Positions 36,734-47,558 of a stretch of 64,000 bases of DNA are shown piece after piece. The translations under genes were made by a program, and so were the position numbers. Positions within the stretch are counted from its first letter, which is position 1; each line of letters opens with the position of its first letter. This DNA is from Coprinopsis marcescibilis (taxonomy: Eukaryota > Basidiomycota > Agaricomycetes > Agaricales > Psathyrellaceae), in assembly GCA_004369085.1 (NCBI GenBank), contig ML210171.1, forward strand, positions 128,904 through 192,903, in the 5' to 3' direction. The notes under the pieces were generated by a model. The model searched no databases and was not told the origin of the DNA. It saw only the letters and a program-made list of their open reading frames with translations.

Positions 36734-38798
36734 TCAATGCTCGCACAGGCTAATCTCGTTCTCCGTGAACGCAACCGTGTGGGCGGAAATAAAGCTTTTC
36801 CTCTCTTCCATTAGCTCCAACCTCATTGCCATGGCGTCCTCGAGGCTGATAGGGAAGCCATCGACTCCGCCAAAGACCTGATCTTGTAGTTCGAGGGGCA
36901 ATTTGTTGAAGCCCGCTGCCCCTGACATTTCCTTTATCGTAGCCTCTCTCCACCAGTCGAGTCTCTGACAAGGTACGTTCGCTGTGCTGATAATTCGAGC
37001 AGTCGGATCTACCAAGAAGAACGCAAGGATCTTGCGGTGGCCAGGCTTTGTCTGATCTGCCAGTTTGAACGGTTGTACTTGATGCTGAAGAACGTTAGGG
37101 AATGCGATAACGCGACCTTCCTTGGTTTCAATGCTGCCTATGTCTTGCACTCCAGGCCCTTCATTTTCCAGCCCAAAGACGGCTGGGAGCCAGTCGTGGT
37201 GATCTTGTTCGTAGCTGATTTCGTTTACGACCTCGTCGTCGACTTGTTGGCGAAAAGCCAGCGTGGATTTTCCAATGTTTTCAGAAGAGTAATAGAAGAT
37301 TGCGGTAGCGCATATGTGTTCGTTCTGCGGGACGCTGTCAGGTAAGATCGTAGAGGTGGGCTTCAAGCGACACTTACTAATTTGCCCTCGACGTGCCAGC
37401 TACCCCCAGGGTACTCCGGTTTCTCCGGAGTAAGATGTATGTTAGCCAGTTTAACGATGACTTGAATTCCACGGTCCCCATACAATTCCTTCAGATTCAG
37501 TTCCCTCTTCTCAATGTTTGACAGCTTTGATTCCTCGAACGAGCAGGCTGGCTCGGGAAGCACGACCCGTCTCGTGTCGATGTACCATCTGCGGCGACGT
37601 TTCCAATGGTCACCTTCGGACTCTCCTGGGAGACGTTGAGGACCATCGGTGTCAGGGCCGTATTCGGGGTCCGGGTCATATTGGCATTCACCGTATTCGA
37701 TGCGGTGGAACCAGTCTGGGTATTTTCCGCCAGCCCATGGAGCAAGGGCTTTCTCCCACAGTGGAATGACTCCTGTGAGGGCTTCTTCTATAACACCATA
37801 CAGCTCTAAATGCTTGGTTGGGTGTAGATTGTTTATAAATGAAGTGAACCTGGATGGGACGCAGACTTTTCAGCCCAATTTTTTGAAACCTTTGTGGCGA
37901 GCAAAACCTACTTGGCCTTCTCTCCCGAGATGTCTACCTCACACGGTAGCCATTGATACTCATTGCTCCAGGGATTGTATTGAGATCGTCCCCGCGAATT
38001 TGGAGAACGCAAGTAGGTTGGGGCTGGGACGGTTTCCCCTTCACCACAGCGTTTGATCGAGTCCTCCAGCGTAGTTTTGTTGGATCCAATGGGTAGGACC
38101 TTTGAGCGGCGATAGGCCAAAGGAAACAGGCTTGGATGTACAAGATCCAAGACCTGTTCATTAGACCCAGGGTGCCAATCCTTCCGATTGGCAGGGACGT
38201 CTTCGAGTAGCCTGACCGCTCGTTTGAGCGCTTCTTTGGTCTCCCGGCTGATCGCAATATCTGACTTGACGACGTCTGCACTGTATACAGAGATCGCTCC
38301 AGTAGGACTGGTTTCAAAGCGTTTGGCCCTCCAGCGAAGCTCAGCGATGCTCCAATTGAACATGGCTTCTGACATGTCAATCTGGGACGTTTCAAGCTCT
38401 GTCTTCCATTTGGATGTGATTTCTTCGCTGAAGACCTTTATATCGAAAAGATCGGTGTGGATGAGTAGAGAATCAAGAGGATATACCTAATTCAAAAGGA
38501 GAGTTACCTTGGTGGTCCAGTCCGGCTTGTCAGTCACTTGATCGATAAACTGCAGAATGGTCAGTTCCCTCAGTGTCATCAAGGGAAGCCTAAATGGCCG
38601 GGATTGAGCTGAGCTATACGAAGGAGAACGCCAGGGTATATTTACACAGCGCCTAGACCGGCAAGGCTCTCGGGGTTCAATATGCTGGGGAACCGAGCCT
38701 ATGTAGTCTATGTCACCTTCTGCAGGTTCATAGTCAAGAGCACGGCCAAGCCCAGGCAACGGGTGGGTTTTGGAATGTTGGATCAACAGTGAGGACAT
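36734..38798 (-). CDS. DUF4246 family protein, copy A
   Basis: Fungal DUF4246 protein of unknown biochemical function. Exons 38798..38508, 38435..37943, 37865..37378 and 37324..36734 give 620 aa. Marker segments: LRELTILQFIDQVTDKPDW; MFNWSIAELRWRAKRF; DWHPGSNEQVLDLVHPSLFP; TLEDSIKRCGEG; YPGGSWHVEGKL; NEHICATAIFYYSSENI; and HRKILAFFLVDPTARIISTANVPCQR. The order matches copy B (45499..47558) throughout, and three of its introns sit at equivalent positions. Copy B's first intron has no usable donor here, so the segment reads through as VNIPWRSPSYSSAQSRPF. The family's HxE/HxD and HRK elements have led others to suspect a 2-oxoglutarate/Fe(II)-oxygenase-like fold; I treat that as conjecture. Confidence 0.87.
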
Positions 38799-39111
38799 GT
38801 TGGGTAAAAAGCGGGAAAGGTACTTTGACAGGCAATACTTGCGTCAACACCACATTACATATCTACTATTTGAATTCACTACGTTTGTGACAGTGGGACT
38901 CTGTGTTTCAGGGCCATCAGAACACGCGCAAATCTCCGAGTTCTGAAGCCGGGACCCAGTGCGCAGTGCGCACACCAAGCTGGGAGTAAACTGGAGAGCC
39001 AGCTGGCAAATAAAGATGTTTGATCGACCTTCGACAATTCCCAGGCGCCTAACCGTCCGATTAAAATATCGACTGAACATAAAGGACGGCTCTTCAACCT
39101 AAAACTCTGTC
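38799..39111. other. Intergenic, copy A upstream to element boundary
   Basis: About 310 bp between the DUF4246 start and the left inverted repeat. It holds the copy A promoter. The 7 bp ACTCTGT at 39104..39110 next to the repeat recur at the other boundary. Confidence 0.4.
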
Positions 39112-39275
39112 TACGGTTGGCGGGAGCGTCGTGGATGAATTTCACGCGCGGCCAACTGGCATCAGACTTTGATCGGCCGACACCGGGTATTCTCCCACAC
39201 CCGCAACCCCTACACCCCTCCTCGATATCGATGTCCAGCGAGCAATTCTGCTCCGGAGGTCGAGATAGCTGCTTT
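39112..39275 (+). repeat. Left terminal inverted repeat
   Basis: Begins TACGGTTGGCGGGAGCG and ends GATAGCTGCTTT. Inverted copy at 45257..45420 with one mismatch (GGCA here, GTCA there, about 39157). An open frame reading inward (MNFTRGQLASDFDRPTP...) is present in both copies, probably by chance. Confidence 0.95.
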
Positions 39276-39450
39276 ACATCATATTAAATACACCTAGTAC
39301 ACTGTAGTCTCGGTCCCTTCTCTTAGCTACACACGCGAACCCATAAATCTAGCGGAACGTCTGCGCGAGCACTGTGCTCGCTGAACATGATCGGAAAACT
39401 TAACCACGGCAAAAGCATGGAAAATAAATAGGGATGACTCTTTATTTAGC

Positions 39451-41090
39451 CTATTCTAAGACATCCTTGAGCTCCTCCGCCATTCTGTTAAATACATCCC
39501 ACGCATTCTCAAGTTCAATTGGAGTACTACCTATGTTAGCATGTGCTGCACGAGCAACTTCGTCAAACTCTGTACTGTACCATGAAAAGTAGTCTGCTCG
39601 GGGGCCCAGCTCTGCTTCAATCATCTGCCTACAAGAATCTTGAGCATCCTGTGGGATAGGAATGAGGCAGTTGACTGCATTTGGGTCGTAACTTTGGGGA
39701 TTCTTGAGAGCATCGGCAGGCACATGACTGGATGGCATCTGTTTAGTGGATTGATAGCGAACGAGATGGTGGTTCCAGTAGATACGAAAGTCATCGAGAG
39801 CCTTTTGCACAATGGGGACAAATATCCAATAGAACAAATCCCTGATAACGGTTAGCATGTCACCCTGGTCAAGTAGGCGGAGAACTTACGTGTGAAATGG
39901 CTGGTGGGCTTGAAAGATGTGCATATCTCGCCCAAGTTCCACAATCTCCCTTAGGTTCTTCCCGACTGAAGACTGTAGCCATCTCCAAAGACTCTCAATA
40001 ACCGTGTTATGAATACTCTTGATAGCAACTGCCGTTGCAAACACTTCAACGTCGATATCTGGACCAAAGGTACGCCTTGTATAAATATAACATCAGACAA
40101 AACACAGAGATGCAACATTTGAAACAAGAACTAACCTGAGCGCATCCTGAAGAGCCTGCTGCCAGCCTCGCTCAGGTCCTTTATCGGTAGTGAGCTTAAT
40201 AGGAATGCCTATGTTGCAGACAGAATATAAGATAATATCAATGAACTGCAGAAATCACTCACCACCAATCTCGTGAATTAAATCAAGATATAGATGAGCT
40301 AGCGGAGCAGCATTGCGACAGTCAGGAAGGACAGTCAGCTTTAGGATCACACTGGAGAACTTGTCTCTGTAAGCGTAAATCCCAAAACTAACATCCCCCA
40401 TCCGGATCGCTTGCCCGTTCATCTTCTCGTGACCATCGGCAGAGACCTCGCAGTAGGGTCCCAATGAGATTAGTCCAGTGCGAGCTACCTGATTTGTTTT
40501 GGCACCGGGAGCACGCTTCTCAAAGCCCTCGGGGGCAAGCCTGCACATTAGGTCGCGGATGGTGTCTCTGCAAGAATTGTTATCAATAAAATAGTATCGA
40601 AATCCAGAGAAGTAAATACCCAGTGCTCACCGAGGAATCAAAATCTCCTTGTCCTGAAGCATAGACTTGATAGCATTCGGACCGTTGCCCTGTGTTAGGT
40701 CCTTCCGAATGATATCAATAGCTGCCTGCTCTATTTCAGCGGATGAGAGCTGGGGCTTCCGCACAGACGGTATCTTGAGATGACCCTCAATCTCCCTCAG
40801 CTTCGTCAGGCTACAAGGTACAGCAGTTCCGCACACGGTCAAATCTGGATACAATACGACTAAACAAATTCTCACCCAATTTTAAGGCCAAACTCGCGCT
40901 GAAGGCACTCGAGTTTCTGTTTCCAAGTATACTTGAGCTTGACGCATTCCAAAAGGCAGGTACGAAGGTCATCATTGGGGGGATCTATGGTTATGGTCTT
41001 AAGTCCTTGTACTGAACTAGATCGTAGATGAGAGCAGCACTGCTTACATGTCTTGTCGCCCCACTGATTACTTCCAGAGGCATTAACCAT
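39451..41090 (-). CDS. Integrase-core (rve-like DDE) transposase
   Basis: Seven exons (41090..41048, 41011..40876, 40810..40631, 40567..40263, 40208..40136, 40075..39890, 39841..39451) give an intact 437-aa protein. Residues about 30-120 look like a helix-turn-helix region (LECLQREFGLKIGLTKLREIEGHLKIPS). The RNase H-like catalytic core follows with the three expected acidic residues: Asp164 in CEVSADGHEKM, Asp230 in LTTDKGPERG, and Glu273 in HNTVIESLWRWLQ. After it come the conserved FQAHQPFHTDLFYWIFVPIVQ and DFRIYWNHH segments seen in integrase-core proteins of mushrooms. It lacks the zinc finger, chromodomain and gag-pol context of an LTR retroelement. It lies just inside the left inverted repeat and is the best candidate for the mobilising enzyme of the unit. 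Confidence 0.88.
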
Positions 41091-41201
41091 GCGAGAGGCT
41101 GCAATGAGCAAGTAGAGATATCAGATATGTTGGTCGTCGTTGGTCGTCGCTGGATGGGAGATGTTGTGGGTTAGAATTTCCGGTAAACACTGTAACTGCA
41201 C

Positions 41202-41209
41202 ATATATAT
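41202..41209 (-). promoter_or_regulatory. TATA-like box upstream of the integrase
   Basis: ATATATAT about 112 bp upstream of the minus-strand start at 41090. Position fits; sequence alone is weak evidence. Confidence 0.4.
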
Positions 41210-41815
41210 TCACCTCTCCCACTGGATTGCGCACTCAACAAATACAGGTCATTCGGAGCACTCAGGTTAGCTCAGGTTGAAGGTCCCCAAACCCGGTACT
41301 AAACACAGCATTTTGGGGACTTGGTCAGGGGATGGACATGAGGCATGCAACTTAGGTGCCCCACAGTTCGAGTCGATTTCCTTTGAAACACATGTCAGTT
41401 ATACGGAGCGCGCAGGATGGAGATTCCCCTGTGAAAAAAGCTATGCGTAGAATACAGTCGTTGGGGATTTATTGAGCTAGCTGGGGGCTTGGTTCCCGAG
41501 CTCCTGAGTCATTTTTGCCCAGACAATAGATCAAGAGCCATTCAAAACCCCAAACGCACGTTGCAAGCATGCTGAAGCAGTCGGAATATTACAGCTCTTT
41601 GATTTACCAACAAATGGAGCTAAGATGTGAGTGAATTGGGGTGCCATTGGGCACTACTGGTTGCAACAAAATGTACACGAGGCAATGATCAAGGACACAT
41701 TTCCCGCCATATTTCGTTATCAAATGACGTAGTCATGTAGAGTCCAGTGCGCAAATGCAGGGTCTTGGACTCCTGGTGGTTGCCTTTTGAGACTGGATAT
41801 GAGACAGGCAAAATG

Positions 41816-41823
41816 TATAAAAG
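41816..41823 (+). promoter_or_regulatory. TATA box upstream of the alpha-kinase
   Basis: TATAAAAG, a consensus TATA box, lies 106 bp before the kinase start codon at 41929. Confidence 0.6.
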
Positions 41824-41928
41824 CGTCGAGAATTGAGGAAAGCCGTTAGCATACTGCAACATCCATTTTTACAGTCTATTCTCAACCTTCTGATTGTCTT
41901 TCGTCTACCTCTGTTATTCCAAACTACA

Positions 41929-44900
41929 ATGTCTACCACCACTTCTACTGGTGCTTTTACCTGCTCAGAGTGTCGACAGGCATTTGTGGCTGCGATGGCA
42001 GACACTGTCAAGTGCGAAAAGTGTGTGGAATTGGAGAAGTGCGAGTACGAGTCAGCCAAGTACAACGAGGTCATGGTACGATGTTATTCCCGCATTTCTG
42101 ACGCTTTAACTGATATCCAACAGAAATGGCGACAGTGTGTTGCATGTGGTGCCTGCTGCCGAAATCTTATGCTCTTACCGACTGGTACCTGCCGAGGTAG
42201 CAGCTGCATTGCTGCCATTCCTGGGGCAGCAAGCGAGAGGAGTCAAAGTAAGCGCCCAAACATGTGTTACACGGCGCCTAATTCTAATAGAAACTAACTG
42301 GTTACTGTATACTGGATCCATGCATACAGAGGGACCAAGACCGCCAGCTACAGCAAACCGTTCGGCACCGATCTATGGTTCTTCAGGAAGGACTTCGACA
42401 TTCATTGGGCTCTGTATCTTCTACCACGCCCCATACGACCAACTCTCTTCTTGCTCGAGACTAGTGTTGCCGCGACTCGGCTCGTCTGATTTCCCGACTC
42501 ATGGCAGTAAAGTGACTCCTGCGTTCAACACCAATGACCAAGTAAAAATCCAACTTGTGCTGTACAAAATGAATGATAAGGAGTCGCTAATTGCATATTC
42601 TCGGTGCACGAAATCTTATTAGTTGAAATCCTATCAGTTACACAACTGAGCGACTCGAACGACTCGAGCTGATTGCTCCGAAAAACCGAGTCGATGGCTT
42701 CCATGCTGAGGATTGCTCTGTATAATCAGTATTACTCCATAATACATTACTCAAACACATTTTAATCACTCAAGTATTACTTTGAAGTTGCAACACAGTG
42801 AGGGAAAGCAATGGGAGGGTAAATACTGGTTTATGATGGGATGTGACAACTCGAGTCGCGGCAACACTACTCGAGACTCCGCAATGCGGAGCATTGCTGA
42901 CATAAACTCAGGGAAGAAAAACGGCATGGTGGTTGAAATAAATGTGCGTAAATGCCGCTGCACTATGCATGTCAATGCTCACCGACTGAACTCTTAGTTC
43001 TGCCTGAGTACAGATCCAAAGCGGCTTGACGCTGCATATGGATCATCCAAGTCCGCATTTGATTTGTCAGATACTTTGTGGGGTAAGTAATTCTTCATTT
43101 AAATTATGATATTTCTGATGCTTTATAGATATCCAAGATCGTGCGCTTGGTGCCTTCAATTCTATTTGGGCAAAGGGCCACGGAAAAGCTAAAGTCGATG
43201 TGTATGTATGCTATTATAATATCCCATGGCAATTAAAAACTGACCAAGCACTAACCTGAATTAGATCCGAGACGGATTTACGGCAAGAGGGTAACACCCA
43301 AATTGCGGAAGTCCACATGGGTCTCACTGTGCAGCAGTGGTGCACTCATCTGTCTGACAGTGGGTTAATCACTGTGCCGTCTTTCTCTGCCGCACGTCCT
43401 GGGAGGAAGGTACCTCTTGGGCCAAAGCCTGCTCTCAAGTTCGAGCTTTACGTCAATTTTGCTGAGGTATGTACCCCGCAAGCACAATGCCAATTTTGAC
43501 CTATGGTGATGTGCACTGCAGTATAATTCTCGCGTTACGCGTGGTGGTATGCCTCTCTCTGCAGCAGAAACCGGAAAATGTGGCCGCAGCGAGTCTATGG
43601 CGGCTGTTTCTGGTGGACCGTCAAAGTTTCCTCGAGTAAACACTGGTGTGTCTTAATTATCGGACACTCACTATTTGATTTATCTGATCGTGTTGCGGTC
43701 CACAAAATTGTTCAGGTCACACTGTGTTTAAGTCCTCCTTTTCGCTTGCGCCACGTTCAATTGCATCTGTATCTACAAGCACGAAGGCGACATTCAAGAT
43801 GATCACCTGCCCTCACATTACACCACAGGGGGACCCCGTCTTCAGTACTGGTGAGACAGTTACTGCATGGATCTCAGAGTCCGCATTTGCCCATGGATCT
43901 ATGAAGGCAGTATACGAGGTAATTTCTTTGACATTCATTTCCAGAGCCAAGGCTGATACGTTCTCATTTACAGATAGCTATCGTAAATCCCACTCCTCCA
44001 TTGGACGAATCAGCACGATACGTTGCAAAGCGCTTCTTCAAGTTGCAGGATGACGCTCAAAGCGACTTGGACAACACCAGTGAACTTGATCTTACCAAGG
44101 TTCCCGCAGATTTCGCCGTCGCCGATCATAATGCACAGATTCAGCATGAGCAAACACGCTTGGCTCGTGGCGTGCTGTTCATGAAGGCCTTTTACAAGCT
44201 TTGTCGTCAACGAGGGGTTGATACATATCCCAGTAAGCATTGATATTCCTCCAGTTCGCAAGAGGTTAACTTATAACATGGTTCATGGGCCATAGACTTG
44301 CAATTTGCAGATGCATTTGTTCTTCAAGAAGCTGGGAATCCCTCTCCTGCCTCTGGAATAAAAGGTCCAGCTCCATTGGCAACGCCTGATAATGCTGGCG
44401 TCGACCAGACCACAGATGTGATGGAACCGGGACTCATGTGGCTCGTAGAAAAGCGTCATCCGAGTCAATGGGTTCAAAGGTTTAGCGGGACCTTGGAGCA
44501 TACAACTCCTCACTCTGATCAACTTCACCTTACTGTGTATGCGTTCCAGCACTTTGTTTATGGATTTAGCAACAACGAGCTCGTCTTTGCTGATTTACAA
44601 GGTATGTAATATTTTCCAATTTTGTTTCGCATCACATCAACTCACTGGGATCCTTCAATGGATGGTAATCAGGAACTCCGACTACTGTTGTTGGTCGAAA
44701 TGGTGATCTATCAAAGGCTACAATTCTTTTTGACCCAATGACGCACACCACAACACAGTCAGTCCATTTGCCTTTGAGATAAGCGCCTACCTTGCCCAAA
44801 GTTCAAACTGACATTGGTTGATCCCTCCAGAGCTTCGGGTGTAGGAGACCATGGCCCTGATGGTATCCAAACCTTTGTTGATCAGCACGAGTGCAGGGAG

Positions 44901-45026
44901 CTTTGCAAAGCTCTTGGACTGAGTGCCCAATACCCTTTGCACGACTTGGAGGACACTGCCGATGGGTATCAGTCTGGTGACAGTGGGCCTGACCCTGGAC
45001 ATGTTGGTAACATTGACACTGTCTAA
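41929..45026 (+). CDS. Alpha-type protein kinase, N-terminal region broken by a MITE
   Basis: Atypical kinase of the MHCK/eEF2K/TRPM7 family. The first exon (41929..42075) encodes a Cys-rich finger-like start (FTCSECRQAF, CEKCVELEKCE) that continues in CVACGACC. From 42998 onward nine exons splice cleanly (42998..43082, 43129..43201, 43265..43466, 43522..43645, 43716..43918, 43974..44232, 44296..44601, 44673..44757, 44831..45026), 510 residues. Kinase motifs: AHGSMKAVYE, ARYVAKRFF (ATP-binding Lys), LVFADLQG and ILFDPMTHTTT (the two Asp motifs), and GVGDHGPDGIQTF with the zinc-site QHECRELCKALGL. In between, exon 42330..42943 is interrupted by the MITE at 42462..42869, and a one-base phase break lies near 42190. 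The catalytic part looks intact; the full-length protein probably is not made. Confidence 0.8.
42454..42461. repeat. Left target-site duplication of the MITE
   Basis: CTCGAGAC, repeated exactly at 42870..42877 on the other side of the insertion. Confidence 0.93.
42462..42869. mobile_element. hAT-type MITE (408 bp) inserted in the alpha-kinase gene
   Basis: Starts TAGTGTTGCCGCGACTCG and ends with the exact reverse complement, an 18-bp perfect terminal inverted repeat with further partial pairing inside. The flanks carry an exact 8-bp duplication CTCGAGAC. TAGNG-like ends plus an 8-bp duplication are the signature of hAT transposons. With no coding capacity this is a non-autonomous (MITE-like) copy. 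Ignoring the insertion, the kinase exon stays in one open frame from ...NSLLARD into SAMRSIADINSGK, so it landed in coding sequence. Confidence 0.92.
42870..42877. repeat. Right target-site duplication of the MITE
   Basis: Second copy of CTCGAGAC, directly after the right inverted repeat. Confidence 0.93.
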
Positions 45027-45256
45027 GCATGTACCTGACCTTTATCTGCGATCGTGGGGGTGTGTAGTAGCGTAGCGCTCCTGTATAGTCTTTTTGGCTT
45101 GGATCCTTGTTCCAAAGGCGGTGGACACATGAGCTAGCGCTCGGCGCTTGTTGCGAGGTCAATGCCCAGACGTCTTCGTTAGATTTACGGGTTGGCATGT
45201 GTAGGTAAGGTCAAAGAATGGTTCCAGTACATGCTACATGTCTCTATATATAGTTC

Positions 45257-45420
45257 AAAGCAGCTATCTCGACCTCCGGAGCAGAATTGCTCGCTGGACA
45301 TCGATATCGAGGAGGGGTGTAGGGGTTGCGGGTGTGGGAGAATACCCGGTGTCGGCCGATCAAAGTCTGATGACAGTTGGCCGCGCGTGAAATTCATCCA
45401 CGACGCTCCCGCCAACCGTA
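45257..45420 (-). repeat. Right terminal inverted repeat
   Basis: Reverse complement of 39112..39275 with one mismatch in 164 bp. It ends 78 bp before the end of the copy B DUF4246 coding region at 45499. Confidence 0.95.
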
Positions 45421-45498
45421 CTCTGTTGTACCACTGCGGATATCCAATCGATCGGGTTACAGTACGCGTCCCTTCGTTAATCATGACGAAGGCAGATA

Positions 45499-47558
45499 TC
45501 AGTGTTCACACAGGCTTATCGTGTCCTTCATAAAATCATTCGTGTGAGAAATGACGTATTGTTTCCTCTCCTCCATAAATTCCAACCTTATTGCCATGGC
45601 GTCGTCCGGATTAATTGGAAATCCGTCAACTCCTTCAAAGACCTGATGCTGAAGTTCAGGAGGAAGTTCAAAAAGTCCTGATGTCAATCCAGCTCCCTCG
45701 GAAATCGTGGCGTCTTTCCACCAATCCAGTCTTTGGCAAGGTACATTTGCCGTACTGATTATGCGGGTAGAGGGATCCACCAAGAAAAACGCAAGAATCT
45801 TGCGGTGACCAGGCTTTGTGGGATCCAGTAACTTGAAGGGTTGTACTTGATGTTGTAAGATATTGGGAAAGGTAACCAGACGGCCTTCTTTGGTTTCGAT
45901 TGCGCCAACATTTTGAACGCAAGGCCCATGTTGCTCTAGACCAAAGACTTCTGACAGCCAATCGTGGTGATCTTGCGCGTTGCTGATCTCGCTCGGATCG
46001 TCTGGAGAGATATGCTGGCGGAACGCCAACGAGGAGCTTGTGATGTTCTGGGAAGAGTAATAATAGATCGATGTTGCGCAAATATGCTCATTCTATGGAG
46101 CAATTTGAGAAGAGAGTTAGCTTTTGTACTTCGATGGCTCGGCACGGCGAACGAAACTCCTTACCAATTTGCCTTCAACATGCCAGCTTCCACCGGGGTA
46201 CTCAGGGTTGTTTGGCGTCAATTCAATATTGGCCAGCTTGACGATGACTTGGATTCCTTGTGTACCGTACAGTTCCTTCAGGCTCAGATATCTGCGCTTC
46301 TCGGTTGTGGGCAGGTCGCAATCCTTGAATACCCCTGGTTCTGGGAGCTTCACTCGCCTAGTGTCTTCGTACCATTGTCCGCGTCGCTGCCAATAGTCAT
46401 CTGCATGTTCGTTTGGGAGTTGCTGAGGCCCATCTGTTTCAGGCCCGTTTTCTGGATCTGGGTCGTACTCGCAATTCTCATACGGGATGCGTGTCGGCCA
46501 TTGCGTGAACTCAGTCGCCCAGGGAGCGAGAGATCTCTCCCACAGTGGGATGGTCGCGGTGAGGACCTCTTCGATAACCCCATACAGCTCGGTGTGTCTT
46601 GCAGGGTGGAGGTTGTTGATGTAGGTGGTAAATCTAAGTTTCTACCTTAGAACAACGCTCTAGTTCAAAAATGTAAAGAAAGCAACTGATACCTTGCCTA
46701 ACCACTGGAAGTTGTCACTCCAAGGGTTCCTTGGCTTTCGATACTCCCAAGGTTGCGTTTTAACCTCCTGGTAGGTTGGTGGGGGAACAGCTTCTCCTTC
46801 GCCACAGCGCCTAATGCAGTCTTCGAGGGTCGTGGCCTTCGCACCAATGTCCAAAATCTTAGACCGCCCAAATATGAAAGGAAACAAACTGGGATGAACC
46901 AGATCCAATACCTGTCCGTTCGAACCAGGATGCCAATCCTTTTGCTTCTCCGGGACATCTTCCAGAACTTTCACAGCCTTTTGAAGTCTTTCTTTAGTCT
47001 CCTGACTGACTGCAATGTCTGATTTGACGATATCCCCGTTGTAGATAGATATTGCACCGGCAGGGCTAGATTTGAACTGCTCAGCTTTCCATCGCAGCTC
47101 ATCGATGCACCAGTCGAACATGGATTCCGTCATATCAACGTTTGGATCCCCCACTGTCTCTGCCTTCCATTTGTGCAGGATTTCCTCGTCGAGAACCTAC
47201 CACTCGATTATCAGGGGGTCGTTCGAAGCAATTACTAGTATCAGCAAGAGCCATACCTTGGCAGTCCAGTTCGGCTTATCCGTTACTTTGTTGATGAAAT
47301 TCAGGATGCTTAACTCCCGCAAAGGTAACATGGGTAACCTGGAGTACATTTCATCATTAGTGGAAGAATTGTATGTCTGAAGAATTAAGCGCACGAAATG
47401 CATCCATCCTCGAGATCTGTAGGGTCTAAGACGTTGGGAAATCGGTTGTTGAGGTCGCCGTCCCCTCGGTAGCGATCTCGACACTTCAAGGGAAGATTGT
47501 GACCAGGCAATGGCTTGGTATAAGAGAAATCCAAACTTGATTGTTTGGCCTCCGACAT
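45499..47558 (-). CDS. DUF4246 family protein, copy B
   Basis: Paralogue of copy A; function unknown. Exons 47558..47395, 47338..47257, 47196..46693, 46641..46165 and 46092..45499 give 606 aa. Shared landmarks: LRELSILNFINKVTDKPNW; MFDWCIDELRWKAEQF; DWHPGSNGQVLDLVHPSLFPF; TLEDCIRRCGEGE; YPGGSWHVEGKL; NEHICATSIYYYSSQNI; and HRKILAFFLVDPSTRIISTANVPCQR. By eye roughly two thirds of the residues match copy A. It has one intron more than copy A, after residue 54. It lies on the same strand, with the inverted-repeat element between the two, so the pair is an old tandem duplication later split. Confidence 0.88.

Follow-up and report, generated by a model that had tools for sequence, protein, structure and literature searches.

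A probable IS3EU-type DNA transposon pairing a transposase gene with an alpha-kinase gene in the mushroom Coprinopsis marcescibilis

A 6,309-bp unit in the genome of Coprinopsis marcescibilis, in which two genes lie between long inverted repeats, raises the questions of whether it is a mobile element, to which class such an element would belong and whether the protein kinase encoded in it is a gene of the element or a captured gene of the host. The unit occupies positions 39112-45420 of the window, by which we mean the whole 64,000-nucleotide stretch of contig C26 that was analysed. Its left arm (39112..39275, plus strand) starts with TACGGTTG and its right arm (45257..45420, minus strand) ends with CAACCGTA; 163 of the 164 bases match in the repeat comparison. 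A preliminary description of the window had reported 164-bp inverted repeats with a single difference around an integrase gene and an alpha-kinase gene, and both the repeats and the two genes were confirmed. Including its fringe, the inverted repeat measures 173 nt at 97% complementarity, with 5,963 nt between the arms, and it was the sole inverted pair of at least 60 nt in the window (repeat search with seed 14, no gaps). The transposase gene lies on the minus strand and adjoins the left arm; the alpha-kinase gene lies on the plus strand and adjoins the right arm.

The transposase gene (39451..41090, minus strand) encodes in 7 exons a DDE transposase of 428 aa with an rva_4 integrase core (PF24764). 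The model has GT-AG introns and agrees along its entire length, at 100% identity, with the annotated C. marcescibilis protein FA15DRAFT_636915. Rva_4 was the only Pfam family matched (E 2.5e-10). The catalytic triad consists of D155, D221 and E264; all three acidic residues had been recognised before, under numbers (D164, D230, E273) that were 9 too high. The frame is open, and intactness was established for this gene only among the genes considered here. A structure model of moderate quality (mean pLDDT 69.4) had the Rous sarcoma virus intasome, Mos1 and the TnsB/Tns transpososomes as its top solved structures in Foldseek, none of them with E below 0.001.

The alpha-kinase gene (41929..45026, plus strand, exon borders set by eye) encodes a cysteine-rich N-terminus followed by a kinase domain that matches PF02816 with E 5.5e-27 over profile positions 1-185 of 185; part of the catalytic domain was detected at 44292..44609 (plus strand) by a profile scan of the genome. 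The D, Q, H and C residues that alpha-kinases use for catalysis and zinc binding do not vary among the five related kinase rows that were aligned. Protein searches with the kinase, in which only about 8,000 candidates were scored per search, matched 3 and 6 proteins, from Coprinopsis, Arthromyces and Mycena. For a related kinase, the structure predicted by AlphaFold was discarded as too poor (mean pLDDT 35.4). The domain had been identified correctly in the preliminary description, which overlooked an interruption of the gene by a hAT-like short element of 408 bp with TAGTGTTGCC ends (42462..42869). This nested element is flanked by 8-bp duplications, CTCGAGAC on the left (42454..42461) and again CTCGAGAC on the right (42870..42877), as read from its flanks. 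Comparison by eye with the kinase of a related unit on contig C384 places it within a coding exon, and there is a stop codon in frame at its start. It has three copies in the genome, the other two, on C1 (L073) and C33 (L074), being 98% and 94% alike and each having its own 8-bp duplication (flanks by eye). Judged by its sequence, the kinase gene of the window is thus broken by the nested element; the public annotation gives it as a partial protein of 417 aa. Movement of this unit would therefore require that its kinase is not needed or is provided by a different copy.

Read from the TACGG end, the unit is flanked by CTCTGTC on the left (39105..39111) and CTCTGTT on the right (45421..45427), which we regard as target-site duplications: 6 of 7 bases match at 7 bp and 0 of 6 at 6 bp. 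The duplication had earlier been given as ACTCTGT, a reading that overlaps the repeat end and that was replaced in view of four other copies with perfect 7-bp duplications. An empty site had also been suggested as a check; the joined flanks, searched in this assembly, matched the two flanks only.

The element sits between two diverged, same-order copies of one gene (36734-38572 and 45499-47321), whose pieces are about 68-74% alike; the copy on the right matches DUF4246. These copies were considered as an empty paralogous site and rejected: to the right of the element their alignment begins 78 bases away, so it carries no information on the insertion point.

Whether the arrangement is repeated was examined across the genome. 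The full 164-bp repeat matched only the two ends of the window element, and elsewhere only its outer part was found. A pattern made from the outer repeat of the window lineage gave 30 genome matches against 0 for a control pattern; the corresponding pattern for the sister lineage, represented by C51 and C87, gave 28 against 5. Most of the single-ended matches of both patterns are counted as they stand in the match lists. The transposase query returned 34 exon-wise matches, and 13 stretches around these and the repeat matches were examined. Five further units, on C384, C211, C349, C51 and C87, repeat the arrangement with the two ends, the two genes and an identical layout. Their completeness is one of layout, and several of the transposase matches in the genome contain stops, which may or may not fall within introns. 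The earlier proposed check, whether integrase copies repeatedly occur with such ends and an alpha-kinase, gave a positive answer. Transposase and alpha-kinase are oppositely oriented in all six two-gene units with both ends. The terminal inverted repeats of the other five two-gene units range from 79 bp (81% alike) to 240 bp, and those of two short elements measure 33 bp (C19) and 31 bp (C286); all exceed 30 bp, as do the 164-bp arms in the window. TA..TA ends, in fungi TAYGG..CCRTA, are present in all 8 copies of the first set read and in 4 of 5 copies of the second, where one C23 end reads TACCG.

The target-site duplications fall into two lengths. In the window lineage, six copies have both flanks on one contig: those on C384, C211, C349 and C19, the last a short element, are exact at 7/7, while the window unit and the C286 copy have imperfect duplications of 6/7. 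Seven sister-lineage copies could be read in this way, and 6/6 bases agree on C51, C87, C126, C23 and C41, 5/6 on C108 and none on C401. The 6-bp duplication of IS3EU is thus found in the sister lineage (5/7 exact) and not in the window lineage; as the published wording is "usually" 6 bp, we read 7 bp as an IS3EU variant rather than as grounds for exclusion. Three further end pairs, inferred across contig breaks, speak against a strict 7-bp rule: C111+C314 gives 6 bp, C337+C78 gives 7 bp with a one-base offset, and C325+C238 shows the same 6/7 mismatch as the window. The 7-bp unit on C349 is the closest to the C33-type element, described below, and its duplication is in real tension with the 6-bp reading of C111+C314 if that pairing is right.

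Further copies are incomplete or fragmented. Kinase-side ends on C325 and C337 are 97.8% alike over 413 bp and transposase-side ends on C238 and C78 are identical over 95 bp; the four are one family broken by assembly. Three internally deleted copies of 1.4 kb on C33, C314 and C111 (L041, L042, L043) are 99.7-99.8% alike and all lie at contig ends. They were probably moved recently and collapsed by assembly, the recent movement being argued for by a same-side flank that differs between C33 and C314, and those on C111 and C314 might together make up a single copy. Among the units, C349 has the transposase most similar to the remnant in this C33-type short element (79%). C50 has both a match to the transposase and an end of the sister lineage, and other rva_4 matches lie on C237, C263 and C155.

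Two observations were made beside this inventory. Short elements of about 0.5-0.7 kb whose IS3EU ends belong to the sister lineage occur at C108:68631-69365, C126:60717-61398 and C23:52382-52843. A weak transposase match and what may be another IS3EU end, with 2 mismatches, lie at C349:13751-14908, on the contig that carries the C349 unit.

From its ends, duplications, gene layout, catalytic triad and PF24764 match, the window unit is very probably an IS3EU-type DNA transposon that moves by cut and paste. According to the accessible text of PMC10045372, the IS3EU superfamily of Repbase combines TA..TA ends with an integrase-like DDE transposase, as does the window unit, and has "usually" 6-bp duplications, which differ from the 7 bp of the window lineage; the word kinase is absent from that text. 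A different integrase-type transposon, such as GingerRoot or Ginger, might have captured a kinase instead. GingerRoot has a related DDE transposase, mostly TA..TA ends like the unit here and 6-bp duplications, and the same text treats IS3EU and GingerRoot as one group and mentions no kinase for GingerRoot; the Pfam match of our transposase, moreover, is only to the general rva_4 integrase-core family. We nevertheless hold this origin to be very unlikely, since it is for TET-bearing fungal IS3EU that the opposite transposase/alpha-kinase pair and the TAYGG..CCRTA ends are reported (PMC12730594, accessible text), whereas GingerRoot is known from clubmoss, with relatives supposed in animals, and the duplications of Ginger1 (4 bp) and Ginger2 (4-5 bp) are at odds with the 6 or 7 bp found here (PMC10045372, accessible text). 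It is hardly credible that two genes came to lie between an inverted duplication by chance or as a product of assembly: only one full 164-bp repeat pair was found and several related copies lie at contig ends, but five units of the same layout occur on other contigs with different duplications, and the control pattern had no matches.

The long repeats prompted a comparison with two other classes, neither of which fits. Mutator-like elements have 8-11-bp duplications and a MULE transposase; here the duplications are 6 or 7 bp and PF24764 is the sole Pfam family. KDZ elements, for which 8-bp duplications are given for Zisupton and a Dileera in the accessible text of PMC12730594, were set aside on duplication length and transposase family.

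If the unit is an IS3EU transposon, its kinase could be a resident gene or cargo, that is, a host alpha-kinase caught between transposon ends and useless to the element. Two observations speak for cargo. Short elements of 0.5-1.2 kb with IS3EU ends are too short for both genes, so IS3EU ends can persist without them; and the kinase in the window is broken while the ends are nearly identical. Against our preferred explanation we also count C279, where the sequence read up to C279:21500 holds a kinase and an IS3EU end without a transposase, and C6, with a transposase, only the start of a kinase and one decayed end. The shared history of the two genes points the other way. Across the six units, transposase identities fall to 27% while gene order and orientation are kept, and the amino-acid identities of transposase and kinase are correlated at r = 0.94 (15 non-independent pairs, C6 being left out for its partial kinase). 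In both trees C51 and C87 separate from the other units, and C384, C349 and C211 cluster together, with a long-branch warning for the kinase tree, in which the C51 and C87 rows are short (20% and 16% of columns). Nei-Gojobori estimates put dN/dS at 0.07-0.14 in the transposase (dS finite in 4 of 10 pairs) and at 0.13-0.27, hence below 0.3, in the kinase (dS finite in 5 of 15 pairs, the value of 0.27 coming from 52 codons); they are rough, as dS is saturated in the remaining pairs and pS reaches 0.65-0.75 even in the usable ones. Both genes look constrained, and parallel divergence together with this constraint argues that transposase and kinase travelled together. The same pairing is also found in rusts and a truffle (PMC12730594, accessible text). 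We therefore consider cargo unlikely. That integrase, repeats and kinase form one mobile unit, the central proposal of the preliminary description, is supported by the five further units, the 30 pattern matches against 0 and the parallel histories.

The association extends to most alpha-kinases of the genome. A PF02816 scan found 14 places, nine of which (C51, C26, C384, C87, C211, C349, C111, C314 and C33) neighbour a transposase of the IS3EU type or what is left of one, and two more (C279 and C337) adjoin an IS3EU end. The kinase matches on C54, C11 and C9 had neither an IS3EU end nor a transposase within 1.5 kb on each side or in the match lists of their contigs. With 11 of the 14 matches beside a transposase or an end, most alpha-kinases found in this genome look like transposon genes, which lends support, for this genome, to the earlier suggestion that such units spread them. 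The alpha-kinase counts of mushroom genomes may accordingly be counts of transposon genes.

The preliminary description knew of no earlier account of such a unit; the literature has one. TET-bearing IS3EU transposons are reported from rusts and Tuber indicum, a truffle, all of their families having a TET/JBP gene between an oppositely oriented transposase and alpha-kinase (PMC12730594, accessible text). The transposase/alpha-kinase architecture is thus already known from these fungi, and its orientation is common to the units here. The rust families in the same text, with inverted repeats of more than 30 bp, TAYGG..CCRTA ends and 6-bp duplications, resemble the C51/C87 sister lineage; the units here differ in having no TET/JBP gene and, in the window lineage, in their 7-bp duplications. 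A genome scan for TET/JBP (PF12851) gave one match, on C302, and none on the contigs of the IS3EU units or match lists. Styx of the ascomycete Zymoseptoria is likewise fungal, of IS3EU origin and with 6-bp duplications, and makes new insertions in crosses; it differs in its size of about 7.9 kb, its four coding sequences and its ascomycete host, and in the sole kinase passage of the accessible text (PMC10853768) the gene meant is a duplicated one close to a copy and no part of the element. Our full-text search for alpha-kinase in connection with transposons or with Coprinopsis found PMC12730594 as the only relevant paper within a scope that left out Repbase Reports and most subscription papers. 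As far as the searched text shows, the TET-less units in a mushroom and the lineage with 7-bp duplications are new; Repbase Reports may already contain kinase-bearing IS3EU families of mushrooms.

In the mechanism that we envisage, the transposase would bind the ends and excise the unit, which would be inserted through a staggered 7-bp cut, and the kinase would belong to the element as a second gene retained over long times, rather than being a host gene in passage. That the kinase regulates transposition is a guess; it might tune the process by phosphorylating the transposase, host chromatin or repair proteins, with the cysteine-rich N-terminus perhaps serving as a docking part. More broadly, and tentatively, since we would give this view somewhat less than an even chance, fungal IS3EU elements could be two-protein machines in which an alpha-kinase regulates or licenses transposition, a mushroom lineage having changed its strand-transfer geometry from 6 to 7 bp and the alpha-kinase "expansion" of mushrooms being largely transposon copy number. 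That a DNA transposon should retain a protein kinase across such long divergence raises the question of which substrate the element phosphorylates, and the 6-bp and 7-bp lineages in one genome offer a natural experiment on the cut spacing of an integrase-type transposase.

One sequence recurs among the flanks. CTCTGTC, or its complement GACAGAG, was noticed by eye and in small numbers at the left of the window unit (39105-39111), at C349 (L039 2091-2097) and at C325 (L044 414-420), and may reflect a target preference.
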